DNA from: an uncultured Fretibacterium sp.
GTDB lineage: Bacteria > Synergistota > Synergistia > Synergistales > Aminobacteriaceae
NCBI GenBank assembly: GCA_937892105.1
Contig: CALAUZ010000397.1
Coordinates: forward strand, 1 to 16,394
Direction of reading: 5' to 3'
Length of the DNA: 16,394 bases
Made by a program: the position numbers and the translations under genes. Below, piece after piece: positions 33 through 9,676 of this stretch (positions within the stretch are counted from its first letter, which is position 1; the number at the start of each line of letters is the position of its first letter). The notes beneath the pieces were generated by a model, which ran no database searches, was not told the origin of the DNA, and saw only the letters and a program-made list of their open reading frames with translations.

Positions 33-515
33 TTATTTATTCCAATTCCAATAAATTGTAATGTCTGCTTTAATGCAATTCATTTTTTCATGTACTTTAA
101 TGGAAGCAACATTATCTAAAGCAACTTGAGAATGTCTCACAAATTTTTTAACTTTAGAAAATCCTTCTAATAATAAAATATATCCATAACCTTTTCTTCT
201 AAACTCTGGTTTTGTATATAATCCACCAGTAGTACCATCCAAATGTTCCATAACATATCCTATAAGGTTATTATTTTCATATAATGCCCATATTTTTTTC
301 TTTTGCTGAATTTCTTCGACATATTCTGGTTTTCCATAAGTTTCTTTGACATAATTTAAATCTTCATCCTTTAAAAGAACTAATTTAGAATCTGAATCTT
401 TTATTCCTTCTCCTTTATATATATATTGAATAAAAGGCTCTGAATATTTAGAAGGCAATGATTTAGATATTTTTTTATTAGTAGTTGAAAGATAATTAAA
501 GCATAATTCTTTCAT
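33..515 (-). CDS. GNAT-family N-acetyltransferase, probably 5'-truncated
   Basis: This 160-residue product carries a C-terminal GNAT fold, which transfers an acyl group from acyl-CoA to an unknown acceptor. The acyl-CoA loop is visible as RRKGYG (residues 106-111) after a hydrophobic strand, followed by the motif-B-like helix with N135, S138 and EK (143-144). The layout resembles FR47/GLYAT-like members, which normally have a longer N-terminal half. The annotated ATG lacks a convincing ribosome binding site, and the same frame stays open for 38 more codons upstream, to the ldcA stop codon, with no ATG, GTG or TTG in that stretch. Base composition is far more AT-rich than every neighbour, suggesting transfer from a low-GC donor, or an assembly join. 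The acetyltransferase call is good; whether it is expressed is doubtful. Confidence 0.7.
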   Translation of the reverse strand: MKELCFNYLSTTNKKISKSLPSKYSEPFIQYIYKGEGIKDSDSKLVLLKDEDLNYVKETYGKPEYVEEIQQKKKIWALYENNNLIGYVMEHLDGTTGGLYTKPEFRRKGYGYILLLEGFSKVKKFVRHSQVALDNVASIKVHEKMNCIKADITIYWNWNK

Positions 516-2611: not shown

Positions 2612-3223
2612 TCATTCGCCGAGTGTAATGACGTGTAGCCACACTATATTATCGTCAGCAGTGAAGGTTTTATTTTTTGTGGGTCTGGAGTTGTCCCATT
2701 TTTCGCCGGTTCCTCCTCCAATAAGTCCGAGTGATTTAGCTCTACCCGCAATTTTTTCCTTAACTCTTTCCTCGCCATCGCTGAACCTGTAGCCCACATA
2801 CCAAATGTTTGCTTTTTTCTTCTCACCATCAGCCTGACCAAAAGCATATTCACTCTTTTTTATGCTGCCATCACTATTGTTTGTTGTCTTAATGGAGCTG
2901 CTATTGTTCATGTACTTCACTATTTCAGATGAATGCCCCTTCCTCGTGAAGCCTTCAAAATTATCTGATTGGCTAGCGTTTCCGTCTACATCGTAGATAC
3001 GGTAAGTATTACCCTCATTCTGCTGGGTTCTAACACTACGCTTGTGGTCTGCATACCAAGATAACGTTGCTTTCTTGAGGTTCGTCAAGTTGCTTATTAT
3101 GTTGCTTGCCTTTGCTGACGTTACAGCCTCAGTGCTGGAGAACATCATCATTGCCGCAAGAATGCCGATTACCACAATCACGATTAACAGCTCAACTAGA
3201 GTAAAGCCTCTTTCCTTATTCAT
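2612..3223 (-). CDS. Type IV pilin-like protein (second of tandem pair)
   Basis: This is a class III signal-peptide protein of the type IV pilin/pseudopilin/ComG type. The leader MNKERG is followed directly by FTLVELLIVIVVIGIL, with the invariant Glu at position 5 of the mature protein and a single N-terminal membrane helix that packs into the filament core. The start at 3223 was chosen because AGGAGG lies 7 bases upstream; a longer ATG at 3241 would put this site inside the coding sequence. The mature protein is about 197 residues with a variable, polar C-terminal head. Helix and late segment (RVKEKIAGRAKSLGLI) match the preceding gene, so the pair is a tandem duplication. It may be a minor pilin, a type II secretion pseudopilin or a DNA-uptake pilin; nothing here decides between these. 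Confidence 0.85.
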   Translation of the reverse strand: MNKERGFTLVELLIVIVVIGILAAMMMFSSTEAVTSAKASNIISNLTNLKKATLSWYADHKRSVRTQQNEGNTYRIYDVDGNASQSDNFEGFTRKGHSSEIVKYMNNSSSIKTTNNSDGSIKKSEYAFGQADGEKKKANIWYVGYRFSDGEERVKEKIAGRAKSLGLIGGGTGEKWDNSRPTKNKTFTADDNIVWLHVITLGE

Positions 3224-3263
3224 GAAATTTCCTCCTGTCATGCTTGATATATTGCCGGAATGT

Positions 3264-3878
3264 TTATTTCTCTACCCGTCCAAAGTTGAGTATCTTTACA
3301 CCGACAAATACATCAGAATTACCCTGTTTATATGGATCGCTGTATTCGCCTTCCTTTTCCGCGTCTTTCCTTATAAGCCCTGTTGATTTTGCGCGCGCCT
3401 CCAGCTTTTCCTTCAGCCTTATGCTCTCATCTGGCATCTTGTAGAGAATAACCCACTCGCAAGGATCTGTGTTCGTATCTTTACCGTTATTGTTTAGGTA
3501 GTCCGTGTAATATATTCCACCCGCATCATCTACCACAGAATCACCCACTGTGAAACCCTGATTATTGAGATAAGCAGCAATCTCACTTGTTGGAACTCCA
3601 TTGTTGTATCTGAAGCGTTTTATATTTCCTCCATCTAAAATATGTCCATAAATGTCAACTCTATCCATATTATCTGCATACCATTCTAATGCCGCAGTTT
3701 TCCAATTGTGAAGGTTAGCTATAATTGCTGTAGCGTCCGCCGAAGCTGCCATCTCCGTAGCCGATAACATCATCATTGTAGTAAGAATACCAATTACCAC
3801 AATCACAATTAATAACTCAACGAGGGTAAAACCTCTACACATACCCATACGCTTTTCGCAACCCCTATTGCGTATCAT
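3264..3878 (-). CDS. Type IV pilin-like protein (first of tandem pair)
   Basis: This is a 204-residue prepilin-like protein. A 16-residue basic leader ending in MCRG precedes FTLVELLIVIVVIGIL, so cleavage by prepilin peptidase PilD is expected after Gly16, with Glu5 of the mature chain present. AAGGTGAT upstream of ATG 3878 supports the long leader; a shorter leader from MGMCRG is possible. The head domain shares RLKEKLEARAKSTGLI with the downstream paralogue but is otherwise divergent, as expected for filament subunits with different tips or surfaces. It is the first gene after the promoter at 3928-3936 and is separated from its paralogue by 40 bases. No assembly ATPase, platform protein or peptidase is in the window, so these genes are separated from their machinery. 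Confidence 0.87.
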   Translation of the reverse strand: MIRNRGCEKRMGMCRGFTLVELLIVIVVIGILTTMMMLSATEMAASADATAIIANLHNWKTAALEWYADNMDRVDIYGHILDGGNIKRFRYNNGVPTSEIAAYLNNQGFTVGDSVVDDAGGIYYTDYLNNNGKDTNTDPCEWVILYKMPDESIRLKEKLEARAKSTGLIRKDAEKEGEYSDPYKQGNSDVFVGVKILNFGRVEK

Positions 3879-3995: not shown

Positions 3996-6488
3996 TTAGC
4001 CTTTAACTACTATATTTACCAGTTTGTCAGGCACCGCAATAACCTTCACGATCTCTTTCCCGGCAATCTTTCCGGCTACAAATTCTTCGGCCATTATGCT
4101 TTTCGCGAGTTCGTCCTTGTCCATTCCAGCAGGACGCTCAAACTTCCCCCTCACCTTACCGTTCACCTGAACAACAACCGTAACACTGTCCTGTACAAGC
4201 GCAGATTTGTCGGCTTCCGGCCATGCCTCGAGGCAGAGCATGTTCTCATGTCCGAGCATCTCCCAGAGTTCTTCAGTGATGTGCGGACAGAATGGGGATA
4301 AGCAGTTCAACAGTACGTCAACAGCCTCACGCTTCAGTTCCCATGCGTCTGGTGATGGGTCATTGAGCGAGTATATTGCGTTCGTAAGCTCCATTAGGCG
4401 GGCTATTGCGGTGTTAAACTGTTTCTCGTCCGTAATGTCATGGGTTACGCTGTCGATTGTCGCGTGTATCCTGCGCTTGAAGTCCCTCAATGCTGAACCC
4501 TTAATCTCCGACATTGGTATAACCTTTTCCCCATACTTCCTGAGATTTTCCGCGTTCTCCTCAACGTAACGCCATACGCGGTTAAGAAATCTATGTGCGC
4601 CTTCAACGTTTCTGTCTGACCAGTCCAAATCGTTGCTGGGCGGTGCTGCAAAAAGTATGAACAGCCTTATCGTGTCAGCTCCATACTTCTTGACCATCTC
4701 GGTTGGATCTACGGTGTTTCCGAGAGACTTTGACATTTTTGCGCCGTCCTTGATTACCATTCCCTGAGTGAGAAGACGTGTAAAAGGTTCGCGGGCTTTC
4801 GTAAGGCCAATGTCAGTCAGGAATTTTGCGAAGAAGCGGGCGTATATCAGGTGTAAACATGCGTGTTCTATTCCGCCTATGTACTGGTCTACCGGCATCC
4901 AGTAATTGACATCTTCCTTTTTGAACGGAGCGTCATCACAGCCGGGTGAACAGTAGCGGTCAAAGTACCATGACGAACAGAAGAACGTATCCATTGTGTC
5001 AGCTTCACGCCTTGCCGGGCCTCCGCAATGAGGGCATGTAGTGTTGAGAAAGTCTGGAAGGTCAAGCAGCGGTGAATGTCCGACTTCTTTAACCTCGACA
5101 TCTTCGGGAAGCCTGACGGGCAACTGGTCTTCCGGAACTGGAACAACCCCGCATTTGTCGCAGTACACGAAGGGTATTGGTGTTCCCCAGTAACGCTGGC
5201 GTGAAATGAGCCAGTCTCGGAGCTTGAAGTTCACTTCACGTTTGCAGATACCTTCCTTTTCGCCCCAGTCTATCATGGCTGGAATTGCCTCACTTGTTGC
5301 CATGCCGTCGAATTTTCCGGAGTTGCAGGCTATACCGTCTTCCTCGAATGCATGGGACATTGTTGCGCCGTCAAGTATTGTGCCGTCTTTGGGATTAATG
5401 ACGGGGATTACGGGAATGTCGTATTTTCGGCAGAAGTCGAAGTCTCGCTGGTCATGGGCAGGAACTCCCATTATTGCGCCTGTTCCGTAATCTATGAGGA
5501 TATAGTTTGCGACCCAAATCGGAATTTTCTTGCCGTTGACGGGGTTAATGCCGTAGAACGGTGTTTTGAAGCCGAGTTTTTCAGCTCCTGCGTCAGAACG
5601 TTCAATAGATGACTGTGCTGCAACATGTTTCACGAAGTCGGAAAGTTTCTGCGCCTCATCAGGTTTCATGGCCGCCTGCATTTTCCTGACGAGTTCATGT
5701 TCAGGGGCAAGAGCGATGAATGTAACGCCGTAAATCGTGTCAAATCTGGTTGTGAAAGCCTCAAGGTCGTAATTCAGGTCTGGAATTTTGAACGACAGCC
5801 TTGCGCCTTCTGAGCGTCCAATCCAGTTAGTCTGCATTATGCGTACTCTTTTAGGCCAGCCGTCCAAATCCTTCTCGATATCGTCAAGTAATTCCTGAGC
5901 ATAGTCAGTTATTTTGATGAACCACTGTTTGAGGTTCTTTTTGTGGACAGGGTTTCCGCAACGCCAGCAGCCGCCGTCAACGACCTGTTCATTTGCGAGG
6001 ACAGTGCCGCAGGTTTCGCACCAGTTTACGGGGGCTTCTTTCTGGAATACTATGCCGCGCTTGTACATCTGAAGGAAAATCCACTGGTTCCAGCGGTAAT
6101 ATTCGGGAAGACAGGTTATGGCCTCGCGCCTCCAGTCGTAACTGTAACCCATACGTTTGAGCTGTTCGGTCATGTAAGCGATATTTGAGAGCGTCCAATC
6201 GTGAGGCTTGGTATTGAACTTTATGGCGGCGTTTTCAGCGGGCATTCCGAAGCTGTCGAAGCCGATTGTGTAGAGAACGTTGCGGCCGTTTTTGCGGTGG
6301 AAGCGGGCTAATACGTCTCCTATTGAGTAGTTGCGTATATGTCCCATGTGGAGTGCGCCAGAGGGGTATGGGAACATTTCGAGGCAGAAGAACTTTTCGC
6401 GGGAAGTGTCAGTGTGGGACTCGAAGCAGTTAGAGGAGTTCCAGCGTTCCTGCCATTTATGTTCTATATCGGCAAAATCATAAGGCAT
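3996..6488 (-). CDS. leuS: Leucyl-tRNA synthetase
   Basis: This class I synthetase charges tRNA-Leu in the cytosol. All landmarks are visible, numbered from ATG 6488. HMGH (47-50) is the HIGH motif. A zinc ribbon has Cys157, Cys160, Cys174 and Cys177. The CP1 editing domain begins near 220 with TTRFDTIYG (246-254). KMSKS is at 584-588, followed by the anticodon-binding helical domain and a C-terminal domain ending near 830. Length is normal for bacterial LeuRS. An ATG at 6500 is also in frame, but GGAGG lies only one base before it, whereas it is 12 bases before 6488, and [12 protein letters not shown] matches the usual family start. The gene is single, with its own upstream region and an intrinsic terminator. 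Confidence 0.97.
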
Positions 6489-6546
6489 AAAGAAATTCAT
6501 ACCTCCAAATAAAAATTTAATTTTTCGTGCAAATTATTTCACGCAA

Positions 6547-6552
6547 ATTATA
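6547..6552 (-). promoter_or_regulatory. Possible leuS -10 box
   Basis: The minus strand has a perfect TATAAT about 60 bases before the leuS start. The hexamer 17 bases upstream (GAGTTG at 6570-6575) is a poor -35 match, so the call is tentative. The leader is too short for a T-box riboswitch. The 9-base repeat GCAAATTAT occurs twice here (6529-6537 and 6543-6551), the second copy overlapping the -10 box. Confidence 0.35.
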
Positions 6553-6579
6553 CAACAGGCCTAAAATCCCAACTCAGCA

Positions 6580-6588
6580 TGATATAAT
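6580..6588 (+). promoter_or_regulatory. Extended -10 promoter of the pyruvyl transferase gene
   Basis: TGATATAAT on the plus strand is a perfect extended -10 element, 35 bases before ATG 6623. No convincing -35 is seen. AAGGTG at 6607-6612 supplies the ribosome binding site 10 bases before the ATG. The promoter is divergent from leuS, so this gene is a single-gene unit with its own start. Confidence 0.5.
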
Positions 6589-6622
6589 CAACAAAAATTA
6601 TATAAAAAGGTGTGCCGATATC

Positions 6623-7718
6623 ATGCACAATAATCAACATGATGGATCCAAGTTGAACTACGCTCTGATGAAGTATCTTTCCTCGAATATAGGCGAGGAA
6701 ATACAGAGTATCGCAGCTCGCAGGTTTTTACCCAGTGTTAATGTCTATGTATACAGAGAGTGCCTTAACTCTTTCAGGCCGAAATCAGAACAGAAATTCA
6801 AGTTAATACTTAATGGCTGGTGGATGCATCATCCGAAATGTTTTCCCCCTTCAGAGTACATTGATCCCCTACTTGTATCAATGCATTTCGACAGAACAAT
6901 ACGCAGTGTTATAGCTGGTAACAGGTCGAGTGTGAACTACCTCAGAGAACATGGTCCGGTAGGTTGCCGGGACAAAGATACAATGAGTTTCCTTCTTGAG
7001 CATGATATACCTGCATATTATTCGGGGTGTATGACTTTGACTCTGACAGAGAATAGGCACATAAAGGCTTCAGAAGGGGGGGGGGTATGTATTGTGTGTT
7101 GATGTATCTGATGAAGTATATGAATACGTAAACGGGATTTCAGACAGGCCTGTCTTTCGCATCACAAAATTGACTAACCCCTATATTATGAGTATGGACA
7201 GGCTCGAACTCGCAAAAATATACCTGTACATTTACCACAATGCTTCAGCTGTAATAACAACAAACCTTCATACAGCATTTCCATGTCTTGCCTTTAACGT
7301 TCCTGTGTGCCTGATAGATCAGGAAAAAAGAGATGGAAGATTTGATGGGCCAGAGGAGTTCACAAATCACTGCACGTGTTCCAAGTTCCTAGAGGGGAAG
7401 TATTATGACGTGAATAATCCCCCGAATAACCCGCAGGAGTTTATAGCGTTCCGGGACACCCTTACTGAAACATGCATGAATTTCACAGGGTATGACTCGG
7501 GAATTCCCACGCTTGAAGATAACTATAGGCCTGATATTATACGAATAGTTCAGATGATGGCAAATAATATAAATGGTTGCAAAAAATCAGTATTTGATCT
7601 TAGCGGGAGACATATACTGAAAGTTGCCGCAGTAAAATTTTGGCATAAGATATTCCGTCCTTCAGTGCGTTACGTTTCCGCGTATGAACGTTATTATTAT
7701 GACAAATATCTTGGCTAA
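6623..7718 (+). CDS. Polysaccharide pyruvyl transferase family protein, frame switched OFF at a G10 tract
   Basis: Members of this family add ketal-linked pyruvate to surface polysaccharides or act on related glycans. The first part has the family signatures GEEIQSIAARRFLP (24-37), ILNGWWMH (62-69), GCRDKDT (114-120) and YYSGCMTLTL (132-141). It ends early at TGA 7100-7102, giving 159 residues. The rest continues in another frame to TAA 7716-7718 with the family's C-terminal motif TTNLHTAFPCLAFNVPVCLI. The break falls inside a run of ten G at 7076-7085. With nine G the join reads EGGGYVLCVDVSDE and gives a normal 364-residue protein. ATG 6623 was chosen for its AAGGTG site; a GTG at 6527 would lie upstream of the promoter. 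The gene stands alone, without glycan-biosynthesis neighbours. The family is clear; the acceptor is unknown. Confidence 0.85.
7076..7085 (+). repeat. Poly-G tract (G10), probable slipped-strand switch
   Basis: Ten consecutive G occur inside the pyruvyl transferase coding region. As given, the tract throws the reading frame into a stop 15 bases downstream; losing one G, or gaining two, restores the full protein. Long G runs inside surface-glycan genes are the classic form of phase-variable contingency loci in Campylobacter and other bacteria. A homopolymer sequencing error is the main alternative. Confidence 0.8.
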
Positions 7719-9304: not shown

Positions 9305-9338
9305 TGTGTGAAATTCTTATCCCTTCATAAATATAAAG

Positions 9339-9676
9339 AGGCAGTCCAATAAGCCGGGTTCTGTATGAATGACGGCCATTTATCTGGGATATCCCTCGCG
9401 GAATTCCTCAAGCGGTCTACCCTGAAGCAGGCGGGCAGCCTTTAACCTTCGCTATTAGACCTTGCTTCAGATGGGGCTTGCATAGCTCATGAATTGCTCC
9501 ATGACTGGTGGGCTTTTACCCTTCACCTTTTCACCGTTGCCATTATTGCCTGGCTGTGTATTTTCTGCTGCGCTTTCCCTCAGATTGCTCCGGCCAGTTG
9601 TTAGCTGGCATCTTGCCCTGTGAAGCCCGGACTTTCCTCCATACTGTGATTATATGGCGGCCGTCTGAACTGCCCT
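9339..9676 (-). ncRNA. rnpB: RNase P RNA (bacterial type A)
   Basis: This is the catalytic RNA that removes 5' leaders from pre-tRNAs. The minus strand carries the near-invariant CR-I block GGAGGAAAGTCCGGGCT (9624-9640) and the CR-V block ACAGAACCCGGCTTATTGG (within 9344-9364), which pair as helix P4. Between them are recognisable counterparts of the E. coli RNA, AAGCAAGGTCTAATAG, GGTAGACCGCTTGAG and AGATAAATGGCCGTC, indicating the type A fold. Helix P1 is formed by GGCAGTTC at the 5' end (9667-9674) and GGACTGCC at the 3' end (9340-9347). The length of about 338 bases is normal. Ends are set from P1 and may be off by a few bases. No separate terminator hairpin follows, only a T-rich stretch. 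Confidence 0.95.

Follow-up and report, generated by a model that had tools for sequence, protein, structure and literature searches.

We report a run of ten G residues (G10) that probably serves, as judged from its sequence and its relatives, as a slipped-strand contingency tract in a surface-glycan gene of the PF04230 (pyruvyl-transferase-like) family. The tract lies in a stretch of 16,394 nucleotides (contig CALAUZ010000397.1, hereafter called the window) from an uncultured Fretibacterium sp. and separates the gene into two halves, namely:

7076..7085, + strand: G10 homopolymer, the proposed slipped-strand switch as read from the sequence, corresponding to residues 137-139 of the relative P0002, in the loop before the strand at 141
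6623..7099, + strand: N-terminal half of a PF04230-type glycan enzyme, with its start at ATG 6623 or ATG 6668
7092..7718, + strand: C-terminal half in the other frame, 208 amino acids, with the C-terminal family motifs NLHTAFPCLAFNVPVCLI and FTGYDSG

The upstream frame is open from ATG 6623, crosses the tract in the wrong frame and ends at TGA 7100-7102, while the other half is open over 7092-7718. Both points had been made in an earlier sequence-only reading of the window and are confirmed here, as is its proposal that the two halves belong to one protein; indeed, they are placed next to each other on all 15 relatives in the alignment, with identities of 67% and 57% to P0002, and all 15 run unbroken across the tract site. 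Thirteen of these relatives have 325-364 amino acids, and the other two (P0011 and P0015) start later. Joined together, the halves read KASEGGG followed by YVLCVDV, and the relative P0005 has KASEAGKYVLCVDV at this join. As the side-by-side alignment on the unbroken relatives shows, a change by a single G shifts the frame between two intact halves, and no damage other than the frame break was seen in the gene. The product of 364 residues that the sequence-only reading had given holds if translation starts at ATG 6623; most relatives begin at or near the MKY motif, which corresponds to ATG 6668.

With the C-terminal half as a query, 15 further proteins were found, all of which have a precomputed PF04230 domain, and both of those with source names shown are from Synergistaceae. 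In the profile search, P0002, P0005 and the orthologue at locus L089 scored 33.6, 44.9 and 28.2 bits, respectively, against a cut-off of 25.3, and the match of the relatives is confined to the C-terminal portion of the profile. Neither half of the window gene alone gave a Pfam match at an E-value of 0.001, the C-terminal half alone found nothing in the genome contigs, and neither the PDB sequence search nor the NCBIfam search gave a hit; six distant relatives were found on viral contigs. The structure model of P0002 (11 sequences) reached a mean predicted local distance difference test score of 77.8, with 35-66 for the other four models, and has a Pvg1p-like fold: its top match by Z score in the PDB is the yeast pyruvyltransferase Pvg1p (5AX7; 13.4, the next being 11.4). 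By Foldseek, Pvg1p ranks sixth (E-value 2.4e-3, template modelling score 0.41), after sugar epimerases and others. In this model, the tract site falls in a loop that is predicted with lower confidence and sits close to the middle of the fold: residues 137-139 are in a block of confidence 69, preceded by a helix that ends at 133 and followed by a strand that starts at 141. Compared with the PF04230 family as represented by Pvg1p, therefore, the relatives share the profile match of 28.2-44.9 bits and a fold nearest to Pvg1p by Z score but differ in that their match stops short of the whole profile and is limited to its C-terminal portion. CsaB and WcaK also belong to this family of polysaccharide pyruvyl transferases. 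The identity of pyruvyl transferase claimed in the sequence-only reading is hence supported at the level of family and modelled fold in the relatives, for which "pyruvyl-transferase-like" would be a fair description, whereas the window halves alone match no Pfam model at the E-value given above; we infer that the product of the window gene would transfer a pyruvyl group to a sugar in a phosphoenolpyruvate-dependent manner.

A tract at the same loop is found in other genes of the family. We examined 140 PF04230 genes (of 142 merged from 150 rows), and among the matches listed, G runs of at least 8 in or just beside the PF04230 domain occurred in 10 of the 82 genes from genomes near the window's in the leucyl-tRNA synthetase (LeuRS) comparison described below and in 2 of the 58 others. 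In six near-clade genomes, at least seven genes (L252, L253, L254, L259, L260, L261 and L280) carry a run of G9-G12 that follows a DPTLLL-type stretch and precedes a strand beginning with Y and hydrophobic residues; the counterpart of this region in the window is SGCMTLTL, then KASE, G10 and YVLCVDV. One of the seven (L280) is in frame and six are out of frame; L258 is probably an eighth gene of this type. When the window family was aligned by profile with 106 PF04230 open reading frames, of which L087 is itself a window-family member, the glycines of L280 came to lie opposite the window site with a probability of 99.2. The G tracts of L262 and L346 lie elsewhere than at the shared loop, and so do the far-clade runs of L228 and L293, which are 195 nucleotides into the domain. 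Separately, a metagenome-assembled genome (MAG) of Gastranaerophilales (isolate Lapin-002) has C10, C10 and G10 at L024:5887, 7142 and 7661 around a PF04230 homologue, which is possibly a case of phase variation in another gut lineage.

Long G runs are also abundant in the related genomes at large. The comparison was made on assemblies, one genome per species, which we divided into 35 near and 40 far genomes at a LeuRS identity of 81% or more to that of the window; this split was chosen with the LeuRS and G10 tables in view, and five of the 80 genomes, in which no LeuRS match was placed, were omitted. The number of G runs of at least 9 per genome had a median of 19 in the near genomes and 6.5 in the far ones (Mann-Whitney p = 1e-4; this test and the Fisher test below ignore the kinship between genomes). 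The near genomes varied widely, with G044, G022, G061 and G041 having 22, 23, 24 and 59, respectively, G041 being the richest. The ratio of G10 windows to runs was 2.1 in the near genomes and 1.0 in the others, contig-end runs (e.g., those of G013) included. As a point of reference, eight G or C runs of at least 9 were counted in the 918,760 bases of loci L002-L080, which are mostly from other organisms. At the first G10 site per genome, the coding strand carried G in 14 cases and C in one at L105-L121, with two too short to judge, and G in five and C in eight at L092-L104, a series that begins with distant genomes. The poly-G artefact of two-colour Illumina sequencing is a known problem, and we considered it as a general cause; it fails for the interior tracts, because these are flanked by unique sequence. 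The contig-end runs at L144, L148, L157, L171, L176 and G013:C192 are possibly such artefacts and are not taken as evidence, although they are counted in the run totals. Lost mismatch repair was likewise rejected as the cause of the tracts in G041, G026, G025 and G061, since these tract-rich genomes encode both MutS and MutL; among the 80 genomes, MutS (TIGR01070) was above the cut-off in 67 and MutL (TIGR00585) in 71.

In G041, 30 of the 59 runs were examined, and 22 of them have at least 40 amino acids open on both sides; G is on the coding strand in all 22. Six of these are in frame and 16 out of frame, which fits the ratio of 1/3 to 2/3 for a random phase (p = 0.65), and among the runs with at least 100 amino acids open, 27 have G and two have C on the coding strand. 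Pfam families were found at 21 of the 25 tract loci scanned and comprise GNAT, ketoacyl synthase III, AMP-binding/nitroreductase, hexapeptide transferases, ATP-grasp, radical SAM, PMP or beta-helix, Caps_synth, LicD, CDP-alcohol transferase, GT1, GT2 and GT6. When split genes were tested, the pieces matched consecutive parts of one protein in three of six (L151, L152 and L154); among eight second pieces, those of the same three and of the in-frame L172 matched the protein kind of the first piece, those of L168 and L173 had no match, and that of L174 (in frame) had only a sub-threshold one. The second piece of L161 matches SPASM, a domain that usually ends a radical SAM protein, and the tracts of L161 and L162 may thus sit at gene boundaries. 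In G061, nine tracts are open on both sides (six with G and three with C; three in frame and six out), and several are intergenic; Pfam matches at eight of 13 tract loci include Caps_synth, PMP, CotH, a TPP enzyme and a type I specificity subunit. The gene for this type of restriction specificity subunit at L138:1502 in G061 has a run of 19 with C on the coding strand, and the locus is possibly a phase-variable restriction system. The sequence-only reading had proposed a search of related genomes for other coding G tracts, and many were indeed found on the coding strand, in both frame states.

A nearly constant tract position is seen in Caps_synth, a capsule-type enzyme. Among 13 copies from 11 genomes, eight have G8-G15 at nearly the same place, the tract ending about eleven bases further upstream in two copies; of the remaining copies, two have an interrupted tract, two have none and one is masked. 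Four of the eight tract copies are in frame and four are out, as read by eye. Contingency loci would be expected to show just such a pattern.

Several observations weigh against reading the window tract as a switch. No G run of at least 8 is present at the site in L001, L088 and L089, the three closest orthologues for which DNA is available; in L001, the nearest of them, the site reads GCTTCGCAGGGAGGGGGCTATGTCCTG, that is, three glycines in frame and of the same length, encoded by GGAGGGGGC, and L088 and L089 use other codons. The sequence-only reading had named such tract-less orthologues as grounds for its rejection, and this applies in part, to these three and not to the seven more distant PF04230 genes with a tract at the shared loop. 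The genomes closest by LeuRS are poor in runs (5 in G052, 5 in G034 and 9 in G024), so that the window's own genome may be tract-poor as well. Among the matches listed, the near-clade excess of tract-bearing PF04230 genes is not significant (Fisher p = 0.12), and L252 (G060:C14), one of the same-loop genes with G10, has an extra in-frame stop upstream, near a short direct repeat, so that it may be decayed or misassembled. The coding-strand bias in G061 is weak (12 G and 7 C) and, given the strong bias in G041, was rejected as a general rule; the matches in G061 also include non-surface genes, namely those for an IF-2B-type protein, an amino-acid permease (at a contig end) and a response regulator. 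Finally, the window contains no G or C run of at least 8 apart from G10, and a run of at least 10 arose somewhere in 13 of 1000 dinucleotide-preserving shuffles of the window; a G10 in 16 kb is hence not extremely rare by chance. The run count by itself leaves chance open, and the weight therefore comes from the place of the tract and from the relatives.

Taken with these reservations, a slipped-strand switch remains our preferred reading. Gains and losses of single Gs during replication would shift the half beyond the tract into and out of frame. In ON cells, the tract would be a multiple of three, and the loop that joins the two parts of the fold would tolerate the extra glycines; in OFF cells, a truncated N-terminal half would be made. 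A population would then be a mixture of both in living cells, and the assembled contig would represent an OFF allele. The claim of a phase-variable switch in the sequence-only reading thus gains from the tracts at the same loop in other PF04230 genes, the many coding-strand tracts and the nearly constant position in Caps_synth, and it loses from the tract-less closest orthologues; at the locus itself, the evidence is comparative. G10 probably belongs to a larger set of tracts in this Synergistaceae lineage, of which the window's own genome would presumably hold others.

Alternatively, the tract length might be an error of assembly or sequencing, with the gene intact and always on. Length errors are common in homopolymers, and the window sequence is that of an assembled contig. 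Even if miscounted, however, the tract amounts to about nine or more Gs inside a gene; related assemblies have tracts of 8-19 in contig interiors and in both frame states, several of them at one homologous site in different genes, and other long genes of the contig (putative LeuRS and UvrB) are open. We regard such an error as improbable. Still less probable is an ordinary pseudogene, in which a single irreversible frameshift has struck a decaying gene. A frameshift is certainly present, the three closest orthologues lack a long tract, and the same-loop relative L252 has a second lesion; yet each half of the window gene is open and aligns well with the relatives, and the break is a long G tract at the very loop where other PF04230 genes have theirs, in frame in L280. 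We give equally little credence to programmed transcriptional slippage on G10 as the explanation, by which some full-length protein would be made at any DNA length: homopolymers of at least 8 can support polymerase slippage, according to the excerpted text of PMC3711429, but the same text names A or T runs as characteristic and describes programmed sites as being under purifying selection, while tract lengths and frames vary among the homologues here. Such slippage, which the sequence-only reading had also raised, is plausible and could coexist with phase variation.

Slippage at tracts is an established cause of phase variation in Campylobacter jejuni, in which strain NCTC11168 has 29 tracts of at least 7 (PMC4965091). 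As in those poly-G/poly-C loci, the long tracts here are mostly in the frames of surface-structure genes, occur in both frame states and number dozens per genome in the richest cases. The lineage here differs in belonging to another phylum, in having longer tracts (up to 19 in contig interiors) and in encoding MutS and MutL in most genomes, and reversible switching is established in Campylobacter while the tracts here are known from assembled sequence. Campylobacter is not known to have the usual mismatch-repair pair. A general regulatory role has also been discussed for homopolymeric tracts (Orsi et al. 2010, PMC2831843), and that work agrees with our case in that a frameshift in coding homopolymers turns genes off; the tracts here differ in being poly-G and often mid-gene. 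Within Synergistetes, the relevant passages of PMC5903667 report putative inversions in one of two species and predict phase variation of the inversion type, which is reversible variation in the same phylum but depends on site-specific inversion of DNA and not on simple repeats; neither "slipped" nor "homopolymer" occurs in its text. In the excerpts of PMC3711429, frame transitions are tabulated for two Synergistetes genomes with no link to phase variation drawn there. A 2025 review (PMC11868660) cautions that a homopolymer prone to mutation should be called phase-variable only after its reversibility has been demonstrated, and "Synergist" does not occur in that review. Our search of the open-licence literature found no report of phase variation by simple sequence repeats in Synergistetes. 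Phase variation of this kind is best known from mucosal pathogens. The tract is most likely a switch of a known kind, found here in a lineage for which our searches gave no report of the type.

The genomic setting of the gene brings in a second kind of repeat:

3996..6500, - strand: leucyl-tRNA synthetase (leuS), the divergent neighbour, in an arrangement shared with G022 (L089)
6501..6622, + strand: intergenic region, without the (ACTCAGG)n leader that is present upstream of the syntenic gene of G022

The window LeuRS is up to 92% identical to those of genomes in the family of G001 (Synergistales MAG Red_deer_2_mag_118); this identity, together with the homologues of the window gene, is the basis on which we place the window in Synergistaceae. 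At G041:C46, the LeuRS match of leuS has one in-frame TGA, possibly an error or a mutation. In L089 (G022), the gene syntenic with that of the window is divergent from leuS, and its 5' end carries (ACTCAGG)4. In the 60 bases upstream there are three start-type codons, all of them out of frame; if the promoter reading below is right, these codons would lie outside the transcript, and the gene may start further in. The relatives P0003 and P0013 begin with MTQDSGLR and MTQDSGLRTQDSGLR, which, judged from the protein sequences, would be ACTCAGG read through in three frames. From these starts and the array in L089, relatives of the window gene seem to carry a different simple repeat.

At least three copies of ACTCAGG were found in 16 of the 80 genomes. 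Twelve of the 16 arrays with 60 bases upstream have a promoter-like pair, TTGACA-spacer-NATAAT, which stands exactly two bases before the array in 10 of the 12. The exact leader TTGACA-N15/16-[CT]ATAAT-NN-(ACTCAGG)n, with n of 2-8, occurs at ten distinct loci:

Leader loci: L089, L179, L181, L182, L185, L186, L189-L192
Leader genomes: G022, G021, G023, G026, G039, G041, G049, G057, G058, G060

The genes behind ACTCAGG arrays encode PF04230 (L089), Stealth-type (L181 and L189), GT11 (L184), FrhB/FdhB-type (L192) and methyltransferase (L182, L185, L186, L187 and L191) proteins, and that of L179 has no Pfam match. In G021, G022, G041 and G058, the array lies beside leuS while the gene behind it differs. 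Near PF04230 genes, we also noticed other heptanucleotide arrays, namely (ACGAGCA)6, (GCCACGA)3 and (GGCTCAC)7 at L265, L267 and L271, respectively, the last two at contig ends. A joint reading, to which we give about an even chance, is that this Synergistaceae lineage has a clade-wide contingency system of two tiers. In the first, G tracts on the coding strand, situated mid-gene at glycine-tolerant loops and numbering up to dozens, would toggle glycan, lipid and adhesin genes with mismatch repair intact; in the second, (ACTCAGG)n would lie where transcription starts, before genes of glycan or methyltransferase type. The leuS-divergent leader would then be retained while the gene behind it varies by species, the syntenic orthologue of the window gene being one of them.

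Elsewhere in the window, a GNAT acetyltransferase gene at 33-515 (- strand) lies in a stretch of low G+C content (0.32 in 1-1000, as compared with 0.41-0.50 elsewhere) and was perhaps recently acquired. Two adjacent genes at 2612-3241 and 3264-3878 (- strand) encode pilin-like proteins with N-terminal methylation motifs and are perhaps a duplicated pair, and a class A RNase P RNA is found at 9334-9676 (- strand; 269 bits).

As for the benefit of the switch, an escape from phages or host factors by glycan switching is plausible by analogy with the phase-variable phage receptors of Campylobacter (PMC8224891). The system offers a test of whether such surface glycans do switch against phages or host factors, and also of the persistence of long G tracts in genomes that encode MutS and MutL. 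A further caution is that annotation of MAGs may list many such genes as broken. With up to 59 G runs of at least 9 per genome, this lineage would rank with Campylobacter in its potential surface diversity.
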